DNA of 39,968 nucleotides from a virus. The stretch is from positions 1 to 39,968 of the IMG/VR virus record IMGVR_UViG_3300022665_000771, one strand, 5' to 3'. The notes under the pieces are model-generated. The model was not told where the DNA came from, made no database searches, and saw nothing but the letters and a program-made list of their open reading frames with translations. Position numbers and translations under genes: made by a program. Each line of letters begins with the position of its first letter. Position 1 is the first letter of the stretch. This document shows, one piece after another, positions 2,317 through 39,800 of this stretch.

Positions 2317-3068
2317 CAAATGCGAAGTGGATAACGAAGCTGGTTCAAATGGGCACGGCCTATGCGAACTCGGAAATTAACGTCGAACGGTTGGCGGAGA
2401 TCGCGCTTGGGATGTATCCGGCGGCGTGCGCGCATCGGGCGGCCACTTCGGTCGTACACCTCAAAGGGGTATGTGGTGTTTGCACCGCGGCCGACGACTT
2501 CGAAGCGATTCTGCGGAAACAGGTAAATAATCCGGCTAGTGAGGGCCGGTTAGACAGATGCCCGCCTTGGTCGGACATCCAAGCGCTGGAGGAAGATCTG
2601 TCCGCAGCTAGGAAAGATCGCGATAAGGCGGAGTCGGCGAACCGAAGTCTGACCAGGCGCGTAAAAGATCTTCAAGACGAGCGTGACTTTATGGTCCGCA
2701 CAATCGGCAGGAACCGGGAGTGCATCAAAAACCGGCAAAAGGAATTAGACGCGGACAAAGTTACAATCTCCAGGCTTGAGAGCGACGCGCAGCGTGAGGC
2801 ATACCAAGAGCAAGCTGCCAACTATACTGATGGCCACCCTAAGCACAGAATGCAGTGGCCGTATCGTGGTCCCAGGGTTGGGGGACTTGGTGTTGGGGCC
2901 AGGTCCCAAAAGAAGGGCGAGTTCTTGTGGCCCTGTCCGAACTACTTGCAGCAGTGTGAGTCGGCAATGGCTTCAGCTGCGGCGTTCATCGACGAGCACT
3001 ACACGCAATGCTGGCCGGGCTATGAACACTGCAACTGCTGCTGTCCATGCCACAAGGATTCACGATGA
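2313..3068 (+). CDS. Coiled-coil protein with Cys-rich C terminus
   Basis: The 251-residue product has three parts. An N-terminal region (1-80) carries scattered cysteines. A long charged helix (about 88-165, rich in Asp, Arg, Lys and Glu) should form a coiled coil. The C-terminal segment ends in a dense cysteine cluster (HCNCCCPCH, last 15 residues) that could bind metal. The start overlaps the previous stop (ATGA), and the stop overlaps the metallophosphoesterase start. Similar N-terminal and coiled-coil layouts occur in other phage early-region proteins, but I do not recognise a named family. Confidence 0.6.
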   Translation: MTNAKWITKLVQMGTAYANSEINVERLAEIALGMYPAACAHRAATSVVHLKGVCGVCTAADDFEAILRKQVNNPASEGRLDRCPPWSDIQALEEDLSAARKDRDKAESANRSLTRRVKDLQDERDFMVRTIGRNRECIKNRQKELDADKVTISRLESDAQREAYQEQAANYTDGHPKHRMQWPYRGPRVGGLGVGARSQKKGEFLWPCPNYLQQCESAMASAAAFIDEHYTQCWPGYEHCNCCCPCHKDSR

Positions 3069-4045
3069 AACACCTACTCGCAGGCATCATGACTCTCTTG
3101 CTCTCAGCCGTGGTAGCCAGAGCAGACGGCGCGCAACGCTGCGCCGACCCGAATGGGGACGGACAGACCACCGCGACCGACGCCTTGCTCGTATTGCAGC
3201 AGGCCGTTGGCAGCAGGGAATGTGGACAGCTGCGCTTCGTTGTCATACCGGACACCCAGCATGCCGTGGAACTCGAGAACGGACAACTCGAGTCTCAGAT
3301 TGACTGGTTGCTCATGGAACAGCCTACCTTTGTTGCCCAGGTCGGAGACATCGTGCAGCTCGGAGATAATGTTCGGCAGTGGCAATATGCCTCGCAGCAC
3401 TTCGGGCGCCTCGATGGCATCGTTCCATATGGCCTAGCAGTTGGGAACCATGATCAGGACCCAGTCGAGGATCCTTCCCCTGGAAGTACCGACCGCTACC
3501 TGGAATACTTTGGCCCGGATCGGTTCGCTGGACGGCCCGAGTACGTCAGTTTCTTTGATGGTGGCGACTCTCATGCCTCAATAGTTGCCGATGGCCAACT
3601 GCTGCTCGTATTCATTGAATTTGGCGCTGCCGGCACCTCGGATGTCCTTACGTGGGCACACGCTCTGATTGCATCACACCCAGAGGCTGTGGTGGCGGTC
3701 GTATCGCACCACATCACCAATCCCGAGGGCACCTCGCTCTCGATTGATGGGCAAGCAATCTTCGCCGCGCTCGGCGATCTGGACAACCTTGCGTTCGTGT
3801 TCGGTGGCCATGTTCACACTGGCCAGCTGATCCCGCCGTTCGCTGGATGTATCGAGCATCGCCGTAAGATAGGTAATTTGTGGATAATAGTTCATAATTG
3901 TCAGAGCGATGGGGCTGGTGGCTCAGGCTGGTTGCGAGACTACCGGCTCGATACTGTGGCGCGCACACTTACGGCCGAAACTTACTCACCGTGGCTCGAT
4001 CAATCGGACACAGATAGCGAATCGGAGTTTACCATTGAATACTGA
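3065..4045 (+). CDS. Secreted metallophosphoesterase with dockerin-like EF-hand
   Basis: Start is the ATG at 3065 (ATGA overlap, AAGGA nearby) rather than the ATG 18 bases upstream, because it begins directly with a signal peptide (residues 1-20, cut near ARA-DG). Next comes one dockerin/EF-hand loop, DPNGDGQTTATD (28-39), followed by the LLVLQQAVG helix. The rest is a calcineurin-like phosphoesterase: PDTQ (62-65), GDI (94-96), GNHD (127-130), SHH (214-216) and GGHVHTG (247-253) supply the expected metal ligands. The final residues are acidic. The enzyme probably hydrolyses a phosphoester outside the cytoplasm; the substrate is unknown. It is unusual cargo for a phage and matches no virion role. 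A second protein with the same EF-hand module lies at 9706-10125. Confidence 0.88.
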   Translation: MKHLLAGIMTLLLSAVVARADGAQRCADPNGDGQTTATDALLVLQQAVGSRECGQLRFVVIPDTQHAVELENGQLESQIDWLLMEQPTFVAQVGDIVQLGDNVRQWQYASQHFGRLDGIVPYGLAVGNHDQDPVEDPSPGSTDRYLEYFGPDRFAGRPEYVSFFDGGDSHASIVADGQLLLVFIEFGAAGTSDVLTWAHALIASHPEAVVAVVSHHITNPEGTSLSIDGQAIFAALGDLDNLAFVFGGHVHTGQLIPPFAGCIEHRRKIGNLWIIVHNCQSDGAGGSGWLRDYRLDTVARTLTAETYSPWLDQSDTDSESEFTIEY

Positions 4046-5697: not shown

Positions 5698-6090
5698 ATG
5701 AACAACGTTGAAACAAAAGAACTGCGCGACAAGATGCGCTCCATGTCGGACGCACTCGCGAACAACGCGGTTCGTATCATGGAACTTGAAGCATGCGTCC
5801 GCAGCCTTGAGTGTGACACCCGGATACTCCGGCGCAATCTTACGCACGCCGAAGGTCTACTTACCCAAGAACGCGAAGGGCAAAAAGGTCCAATGATTTC
5901 ATTTATAAGGTTCCTCGAATCTATCCTCGGAGCGCTTGCCGGCAAAGAGGGCTTAGACCGCGAAGGTCTGTGCAGGCTACAGGGCCTACTAAAGTCACTA
6001 CTTGGTTCGATGCAGGGGCTCGACGACTCAACCAACTTACATCAGCTCAGGAAGAACGAGCGGCGCCTAAAATCGGAGAATAAGAAATGA
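5698..6090 (+). CDS. Coiled-coil protein, 130 aa
   Basis: A 130-residue, mostly helical protein. Residues 1-60 have heptad-like spacing of Leu, Met and Ile with charged residues between them (coiled coil), and residues 66-100 are more hydrophobic and Gly/Leu-rich. The C terminus is basic. Start at ATG with GAGGAAA 6 bases upstream. It is one of several coiled-coil proteins in this operon (see 6313 and 11810). Function unknown. Confidence 0.6.
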   Translation: MNNVETKELRDKMRSMSDALANNAVRIMELEACVRSLECDTRILRRNLTHAEGLLTQEREGQKGPMISFIRFLESILGALAGKEGLDREGLCRLQGLLKSLLGSMQGLDDSTNLHQLRKNERRLKSENKK

Positions 6091-7847: not shown

Positions 7848-8441
7848 CCGCGGCTGGGCCGCTTGGAATTTTCGATCGAAATAATTTTTCGATAATCAAG
7901 AAATTTTAGGCCGCTTGGCCGCTTCAATGCCGCTTCGTTTTTTCGGCAGGTTTCACTATACATACTCCTCGCTTCGTGGTGATGTATAGGAACTTGCACA
8001 GCATCTGCTAAGTCAAGCTACAAGGCATTTGCTTGGCTAAAGGCTATACTATCCAACATATCTTGTGCTATTGCTTACCTCATGTTCAGTACCATGTCAG
8101 ATGCCATGTTCTTCCGCATAGCACCTATCACTATGATGAAAAACCGATTTCTAGCCTTGACATAAGCCGAATTTTTCGCGAGCAAGTGTTACAGCACTCG
8201 CATTTTTCCTGCGCTAACTTTTACATAGTCGGAATTTTTCGCGAACGACTGTTATAGCACTCGGAAATTTTTTCGAGCAACCTAACACTATCCAACAAAA
8301 AAATTTTTGAGCCTCACGCTAAGTGCAATAGTCGGGCCGGTAGGGTTGGCGTTTTTGTGGGTTTTTGCGCGTCGATCGGCAATGGATTGTCGGAATGGGC
8401 GGCACTTTCACAACAGCACACGTCGAAACGCACGTTGTTGT
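7848..8441 (+). other. AT-rich intergenic region with hairpins and repeats
   Basis: This gap holds no credible gene. It contains a small GC hairpin just after the last gene, GGCCGCTTGG twice flanking a 48-bp AT-rich block (with further CCGCTT copies), an inverted repeat CTATACAT (7956-7963) / ATGTATAG (7982-7989), and a pair of long direct repeats listed separately. A CACAACA...TTGTTGTG inverted repeat near 8409-8442 precedes the first sigma-54-like promoter. The region could hold operators, a transcription stop or an origin. Confidence 0.5.
8157..8263 (+). repeat. Two 44-bp imperfect direct repeats, 63-bp period
   Basis: Copy 1 (8157-8200) and copy 2 (8220-8263) share TT[G/T]ACATA, a GAATTTTTCGCGA core and TGTTA[C/T]AGCACTCG at matching positions. 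A degraded third piece (GGAAATTTTTTCGAGCAA) begins at about 8263. No coding frame is preserved between copies. They look like iterons or protein-binding sites upstream of the accessory cassettes. Confidence 0.7.
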
Positions 8442-8463
8442 GAGCGAAATGTAGGTTTTTGGT

Positions 8464-8479
8464 TGGCATGGGGGTTGCT
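8464..8479 (+). promoter_or_regulatory. Sigma-54-like promoter P1
   Basis: TGGCAT-N5-TTGCT matches the RpoN -24/-12 consensus (TGGCAC-N5-TTGCW) at all but one base. It is preceded by GAGCGAAATGTAGG (8442-8455) and followed by TTATAAG. With the usual -12 to +1 distance, transcription would begin one base before the ATG at 8491. Confidence 0.6.
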
Positions 8480-8490
8480 ACCTTATAAGC

Positions 8491-8700
8491 ATGACAAGAA
8501 CACAAGCAATCAGTCTGTTCAGCAGAGCGGCCGACGGGCTCGACACCAACGCACCAAGTCTCGGTCTCGGACCATGGCAAGCGCTAAACTTACCATTCCG
8601 ATGTTTCTTAAGGTACAACCAGATCGACGAAGCGGAGCAACGCGAGTTTGCCCGGGAGATTGTAGACTACCAATTGACGCGAGTTCCGGCCGGGGGATGA
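8491..8700 (+). CDS. Hypothetical protein, first gene after P1, 69 aa
   Basis: A 69-residue soluble helical protein. It has no Shine-Dalgarno; the ATG lies 12 bases after the TTGC of the sigma-54-like promoter, so the message would be leaderless. The C-terminal part (DEAEQREFAREIVDYQL) is a charged helix. The stop overlaps the ATG of a small membrane protein. No family recognised. Confidence 0.6.
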   Translation: MTRTQAISLFSRAADGLDTNAPSLGLGPWQALNLPFRCFLRYNQIDEAEQREFAREIVDYQLTRVPAGG

Positions 8701-8795
8701 GAATGCGATTTTACATTTGTCTAGTTGGTGCGATCGGTTTGGCGCTGGTCACGTGGTGGATCGGTATGCGCGCGGTGGTGCTGACGATTTTCTGA
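8697..8795 (+). CDS. Tiny membrane protein, 32 aa
   Basis: ATG at 8697 overlaps the previous stop (ATGA), and its TGA overlaps the next ATG (TGATG). The product is basic at the N terminus (MRMR), followed by one continuous hydrophobic helix (residues 6-32). A single-pass inner-membrane peptide of this size could regulate or disrupt a membrane complex; no specific role is visible. Coding status rests on the double overlap and composition. Confidence 0.5.
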   Translation: MRMRFYICLVGAIGLALVTWWIGMRAVVLTIF

Positions 8796-9010
8796 TGATT
8801 GAGGTAAATGAGATGGAAAACAAGAACTACGTCGAAGAGTATATTGATTGGGGAACGTTTTGGATCGTGTTGCACGTGAACGGTCGCGATGCTTGCTCGT
8901 ACACCGCGACAGGACTGACGCAGGCTTTCCTGATGTTGGCTGGATATCGAGCGGCTAACCCGAAACGACAAGCTTGCTTGCTTGATCCGACTGGGCGGGT
9001 GATAGCGTGA
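8795..9010 (+). CDS. Hypothetical protein, 71 aa
   Basis: A 71-residue soluble protein with an aromatic core (YIDWGTFWIVLHVNGRDAC) and a likely alpha/beta fold. The ATG at 8795 overlaps the upstream stop; an internal ATG at 8813 has a better Shine-Dalgarno (GAGG, 7-8 bases) and may be the real start, giving 65 residues. The stop overlaps a GTG start. Function unknown. Confidence 0.55.
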   Translation: MIEVNEMENKNYVEEYIDWGTFWIVLHVNGRDACSYTATGLTQAFLMLAGYRAANPKRQACLLDPTGRVIA

Positions 9011-9099
9011 AGCTCATCATGTCATTTGCAGTAACGTTCGCGGTGATTGGTGCCTGGGCGCTGATCGTAGCGTACACCAAGCTGGGGGAGAGGGCTTAG
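9007..9099 (+). CDS. Tiny membrane protein, 30 aa, GTG start
   Basis: GTG at 9007 overlaps the preceding TGA. The 30-residue product is MKLIMS followed by a hydrophobic helix (residues 6-23) and a short charged tail (YTKLGERA). It is the second single-helix micro-protein in this cassette. The 3' end contains GGGGGAGAGG, which can serve the next gene as Shine-Dalgarno. Confidence 0.45.
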   Translation: MKLIMSFAVTFAVIGAWALIVAYTKLGERA

Positions 9100-9102
9100 A
9101 AC

Positions 9103-9354
9103 ATGGAGAACATCAAATCAATCGTTTGGATGAAGGGCATATCACGACTCATAAGAGTGGTTGTGATGAAGGCCGTAACAGAGGGTAAGACAAAAGCCCA
9201 AACAAGTGGAATAGTTCGCAACATGGTAGCCGAAATAGTGGTAGGTATGGAGCTTGAGAGAGAAATCCAAACAAAGTTAGTTGAAACTTTTTACTGGGTA
9301 TTTAAATACACATGGGATAAAGCGAGCGAGAAAAGAGACGAGGAGCTACATTAA
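9103..9354 (+). CDS. Hypothetical helical protein, 83 aa
   Basis: An 83-residue Lys/Glu-rich protein, probably all-helical, with no cysteines and no membrane segment. Its A-rich codon use differs from the GC-richer morphogenesis genes and suggests separate origin. It starts 3 bases after the previous stop, with a GGGGGAGAGG purine block upstream. The stop directly abuts the next gene (TAA then ATG). Function unknown. Confidence 0.6.
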   Translation: MENIKSIVWMKGISRLIRVVVMKAVTEGKTKAQTSGIVRNMVAEIVVGMELEREIQTKLVETFYWVFKYTWDKASEKRDEELH

Positions 9355-9618
9355 ATGACAAAATCAGTGAAGACCATTCTATCGAGCGCAACATCAGTTG
9401 CCTTGTTGCTGGGAATAACATCGGCAGCAGAGACTAGCGCGGCGAACAGCAGAAAGCCTGATGCGGAGCGTGCCTGGTCGAGTAGCAGGTTTCCTACCTT
9501 GCTGAGCCACATGGCATGCACGTTGTTTACCTCTTTGTCGACGCACAACGAGTTCGTCGAATACTTTCACACGGCATTTGTCGCGGCCTACGACGTGCGC
9601 TGCATGGATTATCGGTGA
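9355..9618 (+). CDS. Small predicted secreted protein, 87 aa
   Basis: The first 28 residues form a signal-peptide-like segment (basic MTKSVK, hydrophobic VALLLGI, Ala-rich end). The mature 60 residues contain two cysteines that could pair. Start directly abuts the preceding stop, so translation is probably coupled. It is the last gene of the P1 cassette. Function unknown; no catalytic motif seen. Confidence 0.55.
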   Translation: MTKSVKTILSSATSVALLLGITSAAETSAANSRKPDAERAWSSSRFPTLLSHMACTLFTSLSTHNEFVEYFHTAFVAAYDVRCMDYR

Positions 9619-9678
9619 CGATCGTCAAGAATTGGACGAATTGTAGGGTGGTGAGTGGCGTTTTTGTGAGGTTTTTGG

Positions 9679-9694
9679 TGGCACTGCGCTTGCA
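9679..9694 (+). promoter_or_regulatory. Sigma-54-like promoter P2
   Basis: TGGCAC-N5-TTGCA matches the RpoN -24/-12 consensus in all specified bases. The N5 (TGCGC) is identical to that of P3, and TATAAG follows 4 bases after TTGC. GGACGAATTGTAGGG (9634-9648) is the related upstream element. The predicted start is one base before the ATG at 9706. Confidence 0.7.
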
Positions 9695-9705
9695 AGGTAT
9701 AAGGC

Positions 9706-10125
9706 ATGATTAAAACAACAGTAATAGCGATTCTCTTAACGGCCAGCACGGCCCATGCGGTGTGCGGCGATCTGAACAATGACGGCCAAGTAACTGCTAC
9801 TGACGCCGCGCTCATATTGCAGCGCTCTGTGGGCCTAGACGTTGCTCTGTCCTGCGACTTCGCCTTTGTTGGGCTTGCAGTCTCTAACGAGGTCGAATGC
9901 GCACACGGCGCGTTCTGGGTTGAGTACGACGGAGTGCGTATTTACCCCGAAGACTTTCATTTGATCCGCGGCGACACGCTTAGCGGAGAGATTCGAGTAC
10001 ACATTGGTGATTGCACAGAATTCTATTTCGAGGGGTCATATCCACTACCAAGCACCGGGCTGGTGGAACTGCAGGTGTATGAGGATGCTTTCGGAGTGGT
10101 TCGAGTTCGACTGGTAATCATTTAA
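9706..10125 (+). CDS. Secreted protein with dockerin-like EF-hand
   Basis: A 139-residue product with signal peptide (residues 1-17, cleavage after AHA), then one dockerin-type calcium loop DLNNDGQVTATD (about residues 21-32) and helix AALILQRSVG, nearly the same module as in the phosphoesterase at 3065. The remaining 90 residues look like a beta-sandwich with two or three cysteines. The ATG sits 12 bases after the TTGC of promoter P2 and no Shine-Dalgarno is visible, so the mRNA would be leaderless. It is the only gene of its cassette. Dockerin loops bind calcium and can pair with cohesins; no cohesin is visible in the window. Confidence 0.75.
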   Translation: MIKTTVIAILLTASTAHAVCGDLNNDGQVTATDAALILQRSVGLDVALSCDFAFVGLAVSNEVECAHGAFWVEYDGVRIYPEDFHLIRGDTLSGEIRVHIGDCTEFYFEGSYPLPSTGLVELQVYEDAFGVVRVRLVII

Positions 10126-10189
10126 CGGTTTTCTGTTGCCAGCGCATGGGGTGTGGTTGGCTGGAATGAGCGAATTGTAAGGCGCTGGT

Positions 10190-10205
10190 TGGCACTGCGC
10201 TTGCA
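10190..10205 (+). promoter_or_regulatory. Sigma-54-like promoter P3
   Basis: TGGCAC-N5-TTGCA, identical to P2 over 16 bases, preceded by GAGCGAATTGTAAGG (10168-10182) and followed by TATAAG at 10209. Predicted start is near 10216, leaving a short leader with GGGGAG (10225-10230) before the first gene. Confidence 0.7.
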
Positions 10206-10239
10206 GTATATAAGACAGTTTCTAGGGGAGATGAAAAAG

Positions 10240-10389
10240 ATGGTACGGACACAAGACAACAGTTTCTACACGGTCACGGCGATTGGCGCTTTCGTTCTTT
10301 TCGGCGCAATTGTTTACTACTTCACCGGTTTTACACCGGTCGACATTCTCAGCTCGATTCTCGATATCATAACGGCGGTGATGTCGTGA
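10240..10389 (+). CDS. Small membrane protein, 49 aa
   Basis: ATG at 10240 is chosen because GGGGAG lies 9 bases upstream; ATG at 10231 is in frame but directly abuts that sequence. The product has one transmembrane helix (about residues 12-29, VTAIGAFVLFGAIVYYF) and a hydrophobic amphipathic C terminus (DILSSILDIITAVM). It is the first gene behind P3, and its stop overlaps a GTG start. Function unknown. Confidence 0.55.
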   Translation: MVRTQDNSFYTVTAIGAFVLFGAIVYYFTGFTPVDILSSILDIITAVMS

Positions 10390-10727
10390 AGACACTGGAC
10401 TACGACCAACAAGAAAAGGCTTGTGACGCGGAAGACGCGCTGACAGGCTACACAGCAGATACTGAAGCGGACGACTATGATGAACAATGCGAAGAGCATG
10501 ACGACAAGCGTCCGAATCACCCCTACGCGTTGGCCACGTCGTTGGACAATTGTCCGCGGCGCATACTTCTGGCGCGATGTCAGCAACTTGAAATCATAGT
10601 TAACCGAATTCACGCTATCCTCGATGTTGAAGGGGAGGACTGGGACAGCGGCACTATAGAGCTTGTTGCCGAAGTCTTAGAGGATAATGGCTACGTGATC
10701 CGAGACCCAAACGAGGTTGAAGGCTAA
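10386..10727 (+). CDS. Hypothetical acidic protein, 113 aa
   Basis: GTG start at 10386 overlaps the previous stop (GTGA). The 113-residue product is very acidic in its first half (runs of Asp/Glu) with scattered cysteines. The second half is helical (ARCQQLEIIVNRIHAIL), with a patterned C terminus DSGTIELVAEVLEDNGYVIRDP. The stop TAA overlaps an ATG at 10727 (see the next gene). Function unknown. Confidence 0.6.
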   Translation: MKTLDYDQQEKACDAEDALTGYTADTEADDYDEQCEEHDDKRPNHPYALATSLDNCPRRILLARCQQLEIIVNRIHAILDVEGEDWDSGTIELVAEVLEDNGYVIRDPNEVEG

Positions 10728-11022
10728 TGACAACGATCGAGAACTGCTGACGCCGGATGGGGCTTGGATACAAGACGTGAATGCTAGAACGGCCAAAGGT
10801 AACAAATGCTTTCCCACTAGTAATAAGGCTGTCTGCTGGTGCTTGATTGGCGCGACACTTGCGGTGGACAGTAGCGGCCTGGGCCTCGACATAGAAAATG
10901 CGATGGTGGATTTTCTGGGAATTGATGGCCTGATAACCTGGAACGATACGGCCGGACGGACACAAAGGGAAGTATTGGCAGCGATTGACGGGACGATTGA
11001 GGGGTTGACGACAGATGACTGA
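10717..11022 (+). CDS. DUF6197-like protein, copy 2, start frame disrupted
   Basis: Paralogue of the protein at 1790-2101, sharing AVCWCLIGA and ITWNDxxGRTQREVLAAIDGTIEGL. The ATG expected from copy 1 (10727, MTTIE) is present, but 19 bases that follow in copy 1 are missing, so that ATG runs into a stop after seven codons. The open frame can be reached only from a TTG at 10717 inside the upstream gene, or from a later start. It may be translated by re-initiation, or it may be decaying. The C terminus overlaps the next gene by 8 bases. Confidence 0.6.
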   Translation: MKANDNDRELLTPDGAWIQDVNARTAKGNKCFPTSNKAVCWCLIGATLAVDSSGLGLDIENAMVDFLGIDGLITWNDTAGRTQREVLAAIDGTIEGLTTDD

Positions 11023-11359
11023 ACAAGAAGTATTTACCAAGGTGGTAACACACCTACTTAATCAAGGCGAACGCGCAGAGACCAGCGAGGGAGGTTGCCT
11101 ATACCGTACACCCAGTGGGCTTAAGTGCGCGGTTGGGTGCCTGATTCCTGACGACAAGTACAGGCCAGGAATGGAAACCGATGGAGCGGGATGGAGCTTG
11201 AGGTATATTCTCGGCTTGCTCCACCTACAGACTCACTACTGGCTGCTCCGCCGGTTGCAGCTTGTTCATGATACCCAAGAGTGTGGAGAATGGCGCTCTC
11301 AGCTTACTGTCATTGCCAACGATTACGGCCTGATTATGCCTGGCGACTCGGATGAGTGA
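11015..11359 (+). CDS. Conserved phage protein, 114 aa
   Basis: A 114-residue soluble protein of a recurring phage family: N-terminal EVFTKVVTHLLNQG helix, then CLYRTPSGLKCAVGCLIPDDKYRPGMET with three cysteines, and a C-terminal half of helices (QLVHDTQECGEWRSQLTVIANDYGL). I have seen proteins with this layout in many phages, often next to DUF6197-like genes as here. No biochemical function is known to me. The ATG overlaps the previous gene by 8 bases. Confidence 0.75.
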   Translation: MTEQEVFTKVVTHLLNQGERAETSEGGCLYRTPSGLKCAVGCLIPDDKYRPGMETDGAGWSLRYILGLLHLQTHYWLLRRLQLVHDTQECGEWRSQLTVIANDYGLIMPGDSDE

Positions 11360-11586
11360 TGAATAACTACAACATCGAACTGAGCGTGGAAAACCTGAAC
11401 ACCGGTCAACATAGTGGCTGGCGCACTTTCATCTGGCGCAACGGTGACGGCGAGAGCGTGCTATATGGGTATGCTACCCGCGAAGAAGCGATCGCTGACA
11501 TGAATCGTTTGAGCGAGAGTGTGACATCAAAGATGATTTTTCCGGGATTTTGTTTGTCAATGCGTATTTATGAGGTTTCGGGATGA
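11359..11586 (+). CDS. Hypothetical protein, tandem paralogue A
   Basis: Start ATG at 11359 overlaps the preceding TGA (TGATG). The 75-residue product aligns along its whole length with the next gene: N-terminal strand YxxxxxVxNxxTG, GW, a YxTxEEA helix in the middle, and a C-terminal FPGxxxSMRxxxVxG. The pair arose by tandem duplication. Function unknown. Confidence 0.65.
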   Translation: MNNYNIELSVENLNTGQHSGWRTFIWRNGDGESVLYGYATREEAIADMNRLSESVTSKMIFPGFCLSMRIYEVSG

Positions 11587-11813
11587 AGAGTCACTATGAG
11601 GTTCAGGCTACAGTGTGGAATCCCGAGACCGGGGTGGACGTCGGTTGGACCACCATGAAGGTAGAAGAAGGTAAGCCTTACCAATATGACACCCTGGAAG
11701 AAGCAGACGAGGCCGCAGCGCGCGGCTACCCAAGATTGGTGACGAGCTTGGAAGTACTGTTTCCTGGGCTCGGGTACAAATGTTCTATGCGGGTGGTGAG
11801 GGTTGAGGGATGA
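11583..11813 (+). CDS. Hypothetical protein, tandem paralogue B
   Basis: A 76-residue protein paralogous to its upstream neighbour (shared GW, EEADEAA helix, LFPGLGYKCSMRVVRVEG end). ATGA overlaps occur at both ends. The two copies are diverged enough at the DNA level that the duplication is old. Function unknown. Confidence 0.65.
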   Translation: MKSHYEVQATVWNPETGVDVGWTTMKVEEGKPYQYDTLEEADEAAARGYPRLVTSLEVLFPGLGYKCSMRVVRVEG

Positions 11814-11995
11814 AGCAGAGCGATCGGGAAAGGGTTGTGGAGCTGGAGGGGCAACTGCGGGTCGTGGGGAAGCGATATAGAAGGGTTGTTCGGGAGCTGA
11901 AGGAAGCGAATTCCGTGATAAAGGAAGCACGGGAGTGGTGGAAGCGGCAGGACGCGAGGATTCGGGAGTTGGAGGCAGCCAGTAAGAAGGCGTAA
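11810..11995 (+). CDS. Short basic coiled-coil protein, 61 aa
   Basis: A 61-residue protein, strongly basic and wholly helical (ELEGQLRVVGKRYRRVVRELKEANSVIKEAREWW), with coiled-coil spacing throughout. It is the last gene of the P3 cassette; a hairpin and a terminator candidate follow. Function unknown; a DNA-binding or adaptor role is possible from charge. Confidence 0.55.
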   Translation: MKQSDRERVVELEGQLRVVGKRYRRVVRELKEANSVIKEAREWWKRQDARIRELEAASKKA

Positions 11996-17708: not shown

Positions 17709-19240
17709 GCGAGGAGAAAAAAGAAGAGCCGGGCATCATCTGGAAAGAGAACGCTGATGGCGATTGGCGCGCGTTCATACTCGACCCAGAGACTAGCCGC
17801 AGAAAAGAAGCCGTGTGGGCGCCGCAGCCCGGCAGCCAAGAAGCGTTTATTGCGTGCCCTGTTCGAGAAGTTTTATACACCGGAATGCGCGGACCAGGAA
17901 AAACTGACGCGTTGCTCGCAGATTTTGCCCAGCACGTTGGTAAGGGATTCAAGAGTGCCTGGACTGGTATTCTGTTCCGACAAACCTATCCGGAACTACA
18001 GGACGTGATTAAGAAGTCGAAGGAATGGTTTCCGCGCATTTGGCCCGAAGCCAAATACAATGAGTCAAAATATTTTTGGACGTGGCCAGATGGTGAGAGA
18101 TTGCTATTACGTCACGCTAAGACAGTCGATGACTATAATCACTATCACGGCCATGAGTACCCCTGGATCGGATGGGAAGAACTGACCAACTGGGCCAACC
18201 CTGCCATCTACCTAAAAATGATCTCCGTCAATCGATGCTCGAAAAAAGGCGTGCCGATCAAATATCGCGCGACGTGCAACCCAAGCGGTCCCGGCCACAA
18301 CTGGGTGAAGGATCGGTGGCGACTTCCCGTTGCTATGGGGCTGGTAGTTGGTCCCGTGATTATAGATTCGCGCGACCGCAGTGGTGGAATTGAACATCCA
18401 CGCGTAGCGATTCACGGCCACTTGATGGAGAATAAGGTCCTTCTGCATGCCAATCCTGATTATCTCCAGTCGATAAGATCTTCCGCGGACAATGACGCGC
18501 AGCTGCGTGCCTGGGTCTATGGCGACTGGGATATCGTGGCCGGCGGGATGTTCGACGACCTGTGGCGCGCCAACATCCACGTGGTACCCAACCTGCCTTT
18601 CGGCATGATACCCCTAGGCTGGAAAATCGACCGAAGCTACGATCATGGGCAGTCCAAGCCCTTTTCTGTCGGCTGGTGGGCAGAATCAAACGGGGAGCCA
18701 GTAACCTGGAATGGGCGGATTTACGGCCAGGTTCGGGGGGATATCTACCGAATTGGGGAGTGGTACGGGTGGAATGGTCGGCCGAATGAAGGCATTAGGA
18801 TGTTGTCAAGCGACATAGCACAGGGCATACTGGATCGGGAAGACGATTGGAATATCCGTCATCGCGTGAGAGCGGGACCTGCGGATAGCTCGATCTTCGA
18901 TGATATTGAGCCAGGCAAGAGCGTGGCCGGAGATATGAAAAAGCCGCCTCTGCGCGTGAAGTGGACGCCAGCGGACAAGCGCCCGGGGTCGCGGATACAA
19001 GGCTGGCAGCAGATGCGAAAAATGCTGCGCGGCGCGATGCCCTCGAGCACTGGCCTACGTGAAGAGCCAGGTTTGTTTGTGTTCGAACGATGCCTGCAGT
19101 TTCAGCGTACAGTACCCGCGCTTAGTCGCGATGGAAAGAATCCGGATGATGTTGACACAGATATAGAAGACCATATCGGAGATGAGACGCGCTACCGACT
19201 GCGCGCCAAAAACTCGAAGGCTACCATAAGGAATTTCTGA
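17705..19240 (+). CDS. terL: Terminase large subunit
   Basis: GTG start overlapping the previous stop (GTGA). The 511-residue protein has Walker A GMRGPGKT (60-67), an adenine/lever region FRQTYPELQD (91-100), Walker B YPWIGWEE (152-159) and the coupling motif CNPSGPGHNWVK (191-202). The C-terminal half should be the RNase H-like nuclease (DRSYDHGQSKPFSVGWW near 304-320, and SSIFDD near 397). It pumps DNA into proheads and cuts concatemers. The length is normal for the family. The stop overlaps the portal ATG. Confidence 0.95.
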   Translation: MSEEKKEEPGIIWKENADGDWRAFILDPETSRRKEAVWAPQPGSQEAFIACPVREVLYTGMRGPGKTDALLADFAQHVGKGFKSAWTGILFRQTYPELQDVIKKSKEWFPRIWPEAKYNESKYFWTWPDGERLLLRHAKTVDDYNHYHGHEYPWIGWEELTNWANPAIYLKMISVNRCSKKGVPIKYRATCNPSGPGHNWVKDRWRLPVAMGLVVGPVIIDSRDRSGGIEHPRVAIHGHLMENKVLLHANPDYLQSIRSSADNDAQLRAWVYGDWDIVAGGMFDDLWRANIHVVPNLPFGMIPLGWKIDRSYDHGQSKPFSVGWWAESNGEPVTWNGRIYGQVRGDIYRIGEWYGWNGRPNEGIRMLSSDIAQGILDREDDWNIRHRVRAGPADSSIFDDIEPGKSVAGDMKKPPLRVKWTPADKRPGSRIQGWQQMRKMLRGAMPSSTGLREEPGLFVFERCLQFQRTVPALSRDGKNPDDVDTDIEDHIGDETRYRLRAKNSKATIRNF

Positions 19241-29029: not shown

Positions 29030-29059
29030 TGGACAACAGCAACGCAGACGGTGTAGAAT
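29030..29059 (+). promoter_or_regulatory. Sigma-70-like promoter for tail tube gene
   Basis: TGGACA (29030-29035), 18-bp spacer, TAGAAT (29054-29059), 45 bases before the tail tube start. Same -35 and spacer as the promoter at 22451-22480. Confidence 0.55.
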
Positions 29060-36814: not shown

Positions 36815-39800
36815 TGGCACAACTCGTAGCAACAGGCGGCGCGATCATCGGCAACATGATCGCCCCCGGCATCGGCGGCTCGATCGGCTGGATCGTGGGG
36901 TCAATGATCGGCAACATGCTCTTCCCGCCAGATAACCAGACCCTTCAAGGCCCCAGGCTGGGCGATCTCTCCGTCACCAGCAGCGCATATGGCGTTGTCC
37001 GTGGCCGTGGTTTCGGAACCATGCGCCAAGCCGGCAATATAATCTGGTCCACAGGCCTGATTGAAGAAAGAGAGAAGATAGAGGAGGGGGGCAAGGGCGG
37101 TACGGGTGGTGCAGAAGTTACCCAGGTCACGTACAAGTATTTCTCAAGCTTCGCTATCGCCTTCGGGGAAGGTGTAGCCGAAGATGTCATCCGCATGTGG
37201 GCGGATGGGAAACTGATCTACGATCGCAGCGGCCAAAACAGCGAAGTATGCAAGAAGGGCCTGGACTTCCGGCTCTACCCAGGCGATGATACCCAGCTCC
37301 CCGACAGCATCATTGAAGCCGACAAGGGTGTTGGAAACGTGCCGCCGTTTCGTGGCACGGTCTACCTAGTCTTCAACCGATTGGCACTGGCTGATTTCGG
37401 CAACCGCGTTCCCAACATCACTGCGGAGATTGCGTACGTATCTACCACTGCATTGACGGTAGACATCTCCACTACCATCGGGGATCCGTTGACGGGTCAG
37501 GCGAGCGACGGTTTCGGCATCGATTGGGAACGAGGATACGCATACACCACCGATGTCGTGGGAGGCATCAACGTTTCTGGACTGCGTCGCTACAACATCT
37601 TCACCATGGTTGAGGATCGGCAAGTCACTAACAATGAAATGCTGGACCAAATTACCAATGGCACGGCTACACTGCGAGGACCAGCGACAGTTCTAAGTGA
37701 TGGCTCGCTCGTGGCGCAGATCAGTACAGTAGTCGGAACAAGCTCCCAGCCGCTGGTACGTTTGGATGGAACCAGTTTACGGGAAACAGCACGTAACGGC
37801 ACCGCTGGCACTGGGATTAATTTCTCTCCCTCACAATTCTCGCTAGTGGAATCAATGTCGGCGAACAGCCTGGTCGGAGCGTTGGGTGTAGAAAGCTACA
37901 TCATTCTCATGAATGGTCTCGCGGACTTTTGTGTGGCCTTTGTTGATGAGCTAAACATTAGCTACATTTGGAGCGCTCGCAGTATCCTAGGTGGCACCGG
38001 TAGCGCTCGAATGGAGAGTGTTTGCACAGGGCTCAGCGAACGGTCTAAGTGCGAGTTCCATGCGTTCAGCGGACCTGACTACGATATTGGAACTAGTTCT
38101 GGCAGCCTCAAATTTTGGAGAGTGGAACTCCAGTCTGGAGCAACCTACTCGCTGCTCGGCGGCCAAAATACTCCCACAGGGATCACAGTGACCGAGGTTA
38201 TAAGCCTTACCCCCAATGACCTAATCCCAGGAGAAACCACACTGACCAACGCGGGTGAGGGTGCGGTCTACGATCCGCTTGACAACTCCGTGATCTTCGC
38301 TGCACAGGCAGACGCTGGTGGTCAAGACTTCCTGATTAAGATCGATGCAGACACCGGCGCTGTCCTGTGGCGCGCGCAACTCGGAGACGGGCCCAACAAT
38401 GGGCGCTATTGGTCAACGAGCCGTTTGCGCGGCACCACGTTCGCATTCATGCGCGGGCAGAATGCCTACATGGTTGACACGCGAGATGGCACTGTGATTC
38501 TGAATGGGACTACTTTTGCCACAGGCCACAGCACGCAGAGTCCGGGTTCGTTTGACGCTTGCTCTGATACGTGGATCGGGCAAACGGGTTCTGGATCAGT
38601 GGCCCGATGGTTCCTCAACAGGAAGGCTGGCGCACCGGCCGTCGTAAGCGACATACTCACCACCATCACCGGCGTCGTTGGGCTCACCCCCTCCGACATT
38701 GACGTGACTGACCTGACCAACGATACGATTCCCGGCTACCTGCTCGGATCGCAGATGAATGCTCGAGCTGCAATTCAGCCGCTTGCCAATGCCTTTTTCT
38801 TCGATGCGGTGGAATCAGATTACGTAATCGATTTCGTGGAACGTGGCGGAGCATCTATCCGCACAATCACCCAGGATGATCTGGGGGTGGTCGATTCCCA
38901 GACCGGAGAGATAACGCGCGAGAATCGAACCCAGGAAGTGGAGTTGCCGGAGCGCTTCACTGTCGTGTATTTGGACCCGGACAACGACTACCAGCAGGGC
39001 TCTCAATACGCGAAGCGCCTACTCTTGCCCACGCCAGCCATGTTTAGCAACAACCAACTCGGGTTCAACCTTGCGGCCGCTCTGACCACGGACTTCGCCA
39101 AGCAGCTCGCGGAGAAGGCGCTATACACGGCCTGGACCGAACGGGTCAGCCAGGACATGTTGCTGTCTTGGGACAACATCGATCTGGATCCGACAGACAT
39201 CATCACGCTGAACTTTGACGAGGGAACCTCTTTGAGACTCCGCTTGGTTCAAACCGATATCGGCACAAATTTCAGTGTAGACACGACCGCAGTCGAAGAG
39301 GCCGCCGGCCAGTACACAAGTACCGTGATAGGCGACGGCGGTAGTGGACAGGTGCCTAACCCCCTACCGGCCGAAGGGATTACCAAGCTGATCCTACTGG
39401 ACAGCCCACTGCTCCGAGATGCGGATGAGCCCTCGGGTCGCACTGTAATTCAAATGTACTTTTTCCAGGGAGGCTACGGGCAGACCGGCTGGAGCGCGGC
39501 CCGCTTATTCAAGTCGCTGGACGGCGGGACCTATGAGCAGATCGGCAGATCGACAAGTGAGATGTCCTGGGGCAGTACCACCAATGCCCTGCCGGATCCG
39601 CCCAACGACAATCCTTTCGCCACCGATGAGAGCAGCATACTGACCGTGGCGCTGTCTGGGGTCAGCGACGTTCTCTCCAGCGTGACACAGCTGCAGATGC
39701 TCAACGGGGCTAACCCTGCCATGCTCATCAAGGCCAACGGTGAGATGGAAATCATCCAGTTCCGAGATGTCGTGGACAATGGGGACAACACCTACAGCCT

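Follow-up and report, generated by a model that had tools for sequence, protein, structure and literature searches.

Classical bacterial sigma-54 (RpoN) promoters follow the consensus TGGCACG-N4-TTGCW, and a promoter of this class remains silent without a dedicated ATP-driven activator. A phage that uses such a promoter thus places its genes under the control of a sensor, most likely one belonging to its host. YuA is the one characterized sigma-54-using phage that we found in the literature searched; its authors (Ceyssens and colleagues) reportedly used an rpoN mutant and, to our knowledge, no sigma-54 activator is encoded by this phage. In the YuA record (AM749441), three highly active promoters of the -24/-12 class are annotated, at 38392-38570, 40888-41035, and 47152-47312. 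A later paper (PMC5053324), which cites Ceyssens et al. (2008), describes YuA development as strictly dependent on host sigma-54 and the use of sigma-54 by phages as rare, but not unprecedented. The initial annotation of the DNA analyzed here regarded phage operons under RpoN control as rarely described, which is right, while promoters of this kind were already known from the YuA record and that paper.

Phage Identity and Genome Layout

The whole stretch of DNA analyzed (the window) is a 39,968-base IMG/VR virus record. Its terminase (about 60% identity) and capsid protein (up to 73% identity) resemble those of Mesyanzhinovviridae phages such as YuA, Ab18, and Sonora, and PHROG matches were obtained for a small terminase, a portal, a head morphogenesis protein and a scaffold protein. 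Both the similarity and the order of the capsid, terminase and head genes correspond to those of the Mesyanzhinovviridae (YuA-like siphophages). Judged by these genes, the window phage is an uncultured relative of Pseudomonas phage YuA that belongs to the same wider phage group. Small accessory genes occupy about 15 kb ahead of the virion genes, with all genes on the plus strand.

Three Near-Consensus Sigma-54-Type Sites

We searched both strands for the pattern TGGCAYNNNNNTTGCW (TGGCAY-N5-TTGCW) and found exact matches on the plus strand at 8464-8479, 9679-9694, and 10190-10205, precisely where the initial annotation had placed them. The three sites (P1, P2, and P3) lie within 1.75 kb, 13.7-15.4 kb upstream of the capsid gene, and the pattern has no further match on either strand of the window; a scatter of matches at random places, which the annotation had named as evidence against its reading, is thus not seen. 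The promoter elements, all on the plus strand, are as follows.

8442-8455, plus strand: shared upstream element of P1, GAGCGAAATGTAGG, exact match
8464-8479, plus strand: -24/-12 core of P1, TGGCATGGGGGTTGCT, exact match, rank 3 in the weight matrix scan of the window
8484-8489, plus strand: TATAAG after P1; predicted start at 8490, ATG at 8491
9634-9647, plus strand: distal copy of the upstream element at P2, GGACGAATTGTAGG; proximal TGT at the same distance as at P1 and P3
9679-9694, plus strand: -24/-12 core of P2, TGGCACTGCGCTTGCA, exact match, rank 1-2
9698-9703, plus strand: TATAAG after P2; predicted start at 9705, ATG at 9706
10168-10181, plus strand: shared upstream element of P3, GAGCGAATTGTAAG, exact match
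10190-10205, plus strand: -24/-12 core of P3, TGGCACTGCGCTTGCA, exact match, same as P2, rank 1-2
10209-10214, plus strand: TATAAG after P3; predicted start at 10216, AGGGGAG at 10224-10230, ATG at 10231 or 10240

All three cores have GG at -24, GC at -12 and the fixed spacing between them, and those of P2 and P3 are identical at all 16 positions. The base following TGGCAY is G in P1 and T in P2 and P3 (TGGCACT). The 153 viral sites fetched, about half of which had been preselected for G, have only G or A at this seventh base and never a pyrimidine. The P1 core is presumably one base away from that of the TOL Pu promoter, which we regard as a lead only.

Three exact RpoN matches had been considered unlikely to arise by chance, and the simulations agree: the mean number of matches per window is 0.15 in dinucleotide shuffles (with at least three matches in one of 100 shuffles) and 0.09 in order-3 Markov simulations, against three found. 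A same-strand triplet within 1.75 kb did not occur in any of 300 order-3 Markov simulations and has an analytic expectation of 1.7e-7. The weight matrix scan that had been proposed as a check, run with our own approximation of the sigma-54 consensus, ranks P1-P3 as the top three sites of the window; the fourth (21477) lies inside a head gene.

The common upstream element described in the initial annotation, G[A/G][G/A]CGAA[A/T]TGTA[A/G]G, is likewise present at all three sites, with exact CGAAWTGTARG matches at 8445, 9637, and 10171 and none elsewhere in the window. The distance from CGAA to TGGCA (19, 42, and 19 bases at P1, P2, and P3, respectively) fits the equal spacing claimed for P1 and P3 and an excess of about 23 bp at P2. 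This description can be refined: a TGT is located exactly 14 bases before TGGCA at P2 as well as at P1 and P3, and P2 therefore seems to carry the element twice, in a proximal and an additional distal copy, rather than a plain insertion. The element lies close to the core and may be a duplicated piece of promoter instead of a site for an activator. TATAAG begins 4, 3, and 3 bases after TTGCW at P1, P2, and P3, respectively; the 4-5 bases given earlier are correct if counted from TTGC. The three sites thus agree in the spacing within the core, whereas TATAAG and the upstream element are found at varying distances from it.

The gene-poor stretch before P1 contains two imperfect 57-base direct repeats (77%; 8151-8270; 63 bases start to start) with modest hairpin potential, which are possibly terminators. 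An Rfam search gave no matches.

Predicted Starts and Downstream Genes

Each site opens a small gene cassette, as the initial annotation had stated. The cassettes comprise six ORFs after P1, a single gene after P2 and seven ORFs after P3.

8491-9618, plus strand: P1 operon of six packed small ORFs (starting at 8491, 8697, 8795, 9007, 9103, and 9355)
9706-10125, plus strand: P2 gene, encoding an apparent signal peptide and a dockerin-type repeat (Dockerin_1, E 2.9e-4)
10231-11995, plus strand: P3 operon of seven small ORFs, including a DUF6197 gene (10717-11022) and a member of phrog_17693 (11015-11359)

Two of the six P1 ORFs encode short hydrophobic peptides, and none of the six received a Pfam, PHROG or PADLOC assignment of weight. 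The Pfam match of the P2 gene to Dockerin_1 (E 2.9e-4) falls just below the curated cut-off. A search for relatives of the P3-operon protein encoded at 11015-11359 found none, and there were no matches to PADLOC defence families.

Transcription starts were predicted by the established rule of counting 12 bases from the -12 cytosine, past which the ORFs in the sense direction begin at 13 (P1), 13 (P2), and 27 or 36 (P3) bases. Since the predicted start lies one base before the ATG at both P1 and P2, this geometry predicts that their transcripts may be leaderless or nearly so, with the ATG at +2, while the P3 transcript would include a Shine-Dalgarno sequence in its short leader. Only about seven of the 153 viral sites fetched have a possible start codon 11-15 bases past the -12 cytosine, most starts being 30-60 bases away, which makes the arrangement at P1 and P2 unusual.

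The accessory region shows some further internal similarities. The DUF6197 proteins encoded at 1790-2101 and 10717-11022 are paralogues (about 49% identity) located in separate accessory blocks. Apparent signal peptides and a common dockerin-type repeat (50% over 42 residues) are shared by the P2 protein and the protein encoded at 3047-4045, a metallophosphoesterase. Such proteins are unusual phage cargo and may hint at the host; tracing the host by means of the phosphoesterase yielded nothing.

Related Phages and Other Viral Contigs

The pattern TGGCAYN5TTGCW has no match in 16 cultured relatives (about 0.99 Mb), against one for the reversed control. Two uncultured relatives, identified by their capsid protein (G013 and G011), do contain sigma-54 sites. 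G013 has two, each of them ending a repeated block of about 190 bp and followed by GGAGG and an ATG; in one block, an inverted repeat of 11 bp lies about 97 to 53 bases upstream. In G011, a single site precedes AGGAGG-ATG and has a dyad of 12 bp about 106 bases upstream, and some further exact matches in this genome may be due to chance. The sites of both relatives lack the upstream element and the TATAAG of the window, so the part that recurs is the sigma-54 core. The first genes after P1 (8491, MTRTQAIS), P3 (10240, MVRTQDNS) and the first G013 site (L042, 6821, MTRKQTLS) have similar N-termini, a short likeness that may have arisen by chance.

We also scanned IMG/VR for the core followed by a Shine-Dalgarno sequence (TTGGCACGN4TTGCA, then AGGAG 22-44 bases later). 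This returned 78 stretches versus six for the reversed core, a 13-fold excess that should be taken as an indication and not as a census, since proviral host DNA is possibly counted and the dinucleotide contents of pattern and control differ. Many of these stretches run straight into small ORFs. The exact P2/P3 core followed by TATAAG is present in no other viral contig. The combination of CGAAWTGTARG and core hit two contigs, both of which were rejected: L004, a phage that itself has six sites, and L005, whose record lacks a full TGGCAYN5TTGCW match. TGTARGNNNNTGGTTGGCAY followed by TTGC matched a single viral contig, in a coding gene on the wrong strand, which was taken as chance, and was not found in bacterial genomes.

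Other arrangements were seen among the viral contigs. A 64.7-kb record (G030; L153-L158) contains ten exact sigma-54-type sites, all on the plus strand and spread over the genome (none for the control), seven of which are located just before an ORF, including thyX and a gene with an RF-1 domain. In five loci (L071, L087, L102, L112, and L135), a sigma-54 core with a Shine-Dalgarno sequence precedes an Hsp20-like gene, an assignment made by visual inspection of the protein sequence. For L122 (G049 18550-19063) and L128 (G053), 14 same-strand TGGCAYN5TTGCW sites, many of them 24-26 bases apart, were seen within about 0.5 kb of a viral contig; these are too dense for ordinary promoters and are perhaps an RpoN-binding array or decoy. 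In L043 (G001; 2121/2155 and 5941-6081), L069, L104, and L088, cores occur as face-to-face pairs separated by 2-3 bases and in clusters with as many as six sites.

Probable Source of the Activator

The initial annotation had suggested that the phage might encode its own activator. This finds no support in the present group: no Sigma54_activat domain (PF00158) was detected in the window, which is incomplete, or in nine other records, seven of which are capsid relatives of 53.7-67 kb. We therefore presume a host activator, which is the likelier source. Enhancer sites are often located 80-150 bases upstream, and no enhancer-like dyad common to P1-P3 was found; an 8-bp dyad (TCACAACA/TGTTGTGA) is present near P1 only.

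Elsewhere, the viral contig G059 (L159, 10904-11746) encodes a 280-residue AAA+ protein of the sigma-54 activator type (PF00158, E 6e-60), with NSFTGA in place of the usual GAFTGA and no recognized sensor domain. Four sigma-54-type sites lie near its gene, as do ligase and helicase genes of phage type. A phage-encoded activator is thus possible in principle.

Function of the Three Sites

P1-P3 are probably sigma-54 promoters that use RpoN and an activator of the host; this is the best supported reading and agrees with the comparative data. Counting against it are the T at the seventh base of P2 and P3, the lack of an enhancer-like dyad common to all three sites, the failure to find an activator gene in the incomplete window, and the absence of this exact promoter type from the other contigs searched. 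P1-P3 would act as RpoN-dependent promoters of a YuA-like siphophage, one for each small accessory-gene block, upstream of the virion module. At each -24/-12 core, host RpoN and host RNA polymerase would form a closed complex that stays silent until a host AAA+ enhancer-binding protein melts it, and the accessory blocks would be switched on together by whatever signal this activator reads. The initial annotation had proposed that the phage might read the nitrogen or stress state of its host. The three copies are probably the product of duplication.

The TATAAG present at all three sites could alternatively be the -10 element of sigma-70-class promoters, perhaps needing a phage cofactor, with a weak -35 (TTGGTT, TTGGTG, and CTGGTT) 17-19 bases upstream and an incidental -24/-12 match; two 28-base repeats in the same slot of YuA are indeed annotated as putative sigma-70 promoters that need a phage cofactor. 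We consider this unlikely, since a consensus scan (TTGACA-like -35, 16-18 bases, TATAAT-like -10) gives no match at P1-P3 at the threshold and one match in the region, compared with 4.6 in shuffles. A start 6-7 bases past TATAAG would moreover fall inside the P1 and P2 coding sequences, TATAAG is absent from the sigma-54 sites of G013 and G011, and an AT-rich stretch past -12 is common among viral sigma-54 sites.

The location of the sites at block edges and the full identity (16/16) of the P2 and P3 cores would also suit duplicated cassette boundaries without promoter function, that is, short homology from recombination or duplication of accessory blocks. It is however the -24/-12 letters and their spacing that are conserved, and not the flanks, while the cores of the relatives have quite different flanks, which renders this explanation very unlikely. 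We give least credence to P1-P3 being binding sites for RpoN or another protein that do something other than start transcription, for instance in titration or as an operator: the dense arrays and face-to-face pairs of other viral contigs are hard to read as ordinary promoters, but the sites of the window are single, co-directional and located directly before genes.

Comparison With Known Systems

Three near-consensus copies in one phage, along with the 13-fold excess in viral contigs, suggest that phages use host sigma-54 more commonly than described. A broader proposal is tentative, and we hold it to be possible rather than probable: the window would be one instance of a widespread, nearly undescribed strategy, in which host sigma-54 promoters drive the accessory genes of many uncultured phages and, in some phages, genes throughout much of the genome. 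If true, phage gene expression would be tied to the signals read by AAA+ activators, which would belong to the host or, occasionally, be encoded by the phage. In the present case, two of the three transcripts would in addition be leaderless.

Compared with classical bacterial sigma-54 promoters, P1-P3 have the same core letters and spacing, but P2 and P3 differ by the T at the seventh base, and P1 and P2 by an ATG one base after the predicted start. YuA, from the same wider phage group, also has three promoters of the -24/-12 class. These are, however, located in the virion-gene region and have no close consensus match by our matrix, whereas those of the window are near-consensus, repeated and placed before accessory genes; no strong site was found at the YuA-type position of the window (virion module, before the scaffold and tape-measure regions). 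The slot occupied by P1-P3, among small genes before the terminase, contains in YuA the repeated 28-base putative sigma-70 promoters at 29058 and 31098 (CTTTACTTCTTCGG-N7-CCACTATA), which are not of the -24/-12 class. In both phages, a near-identical putative promoter thus heads more than one gene block.
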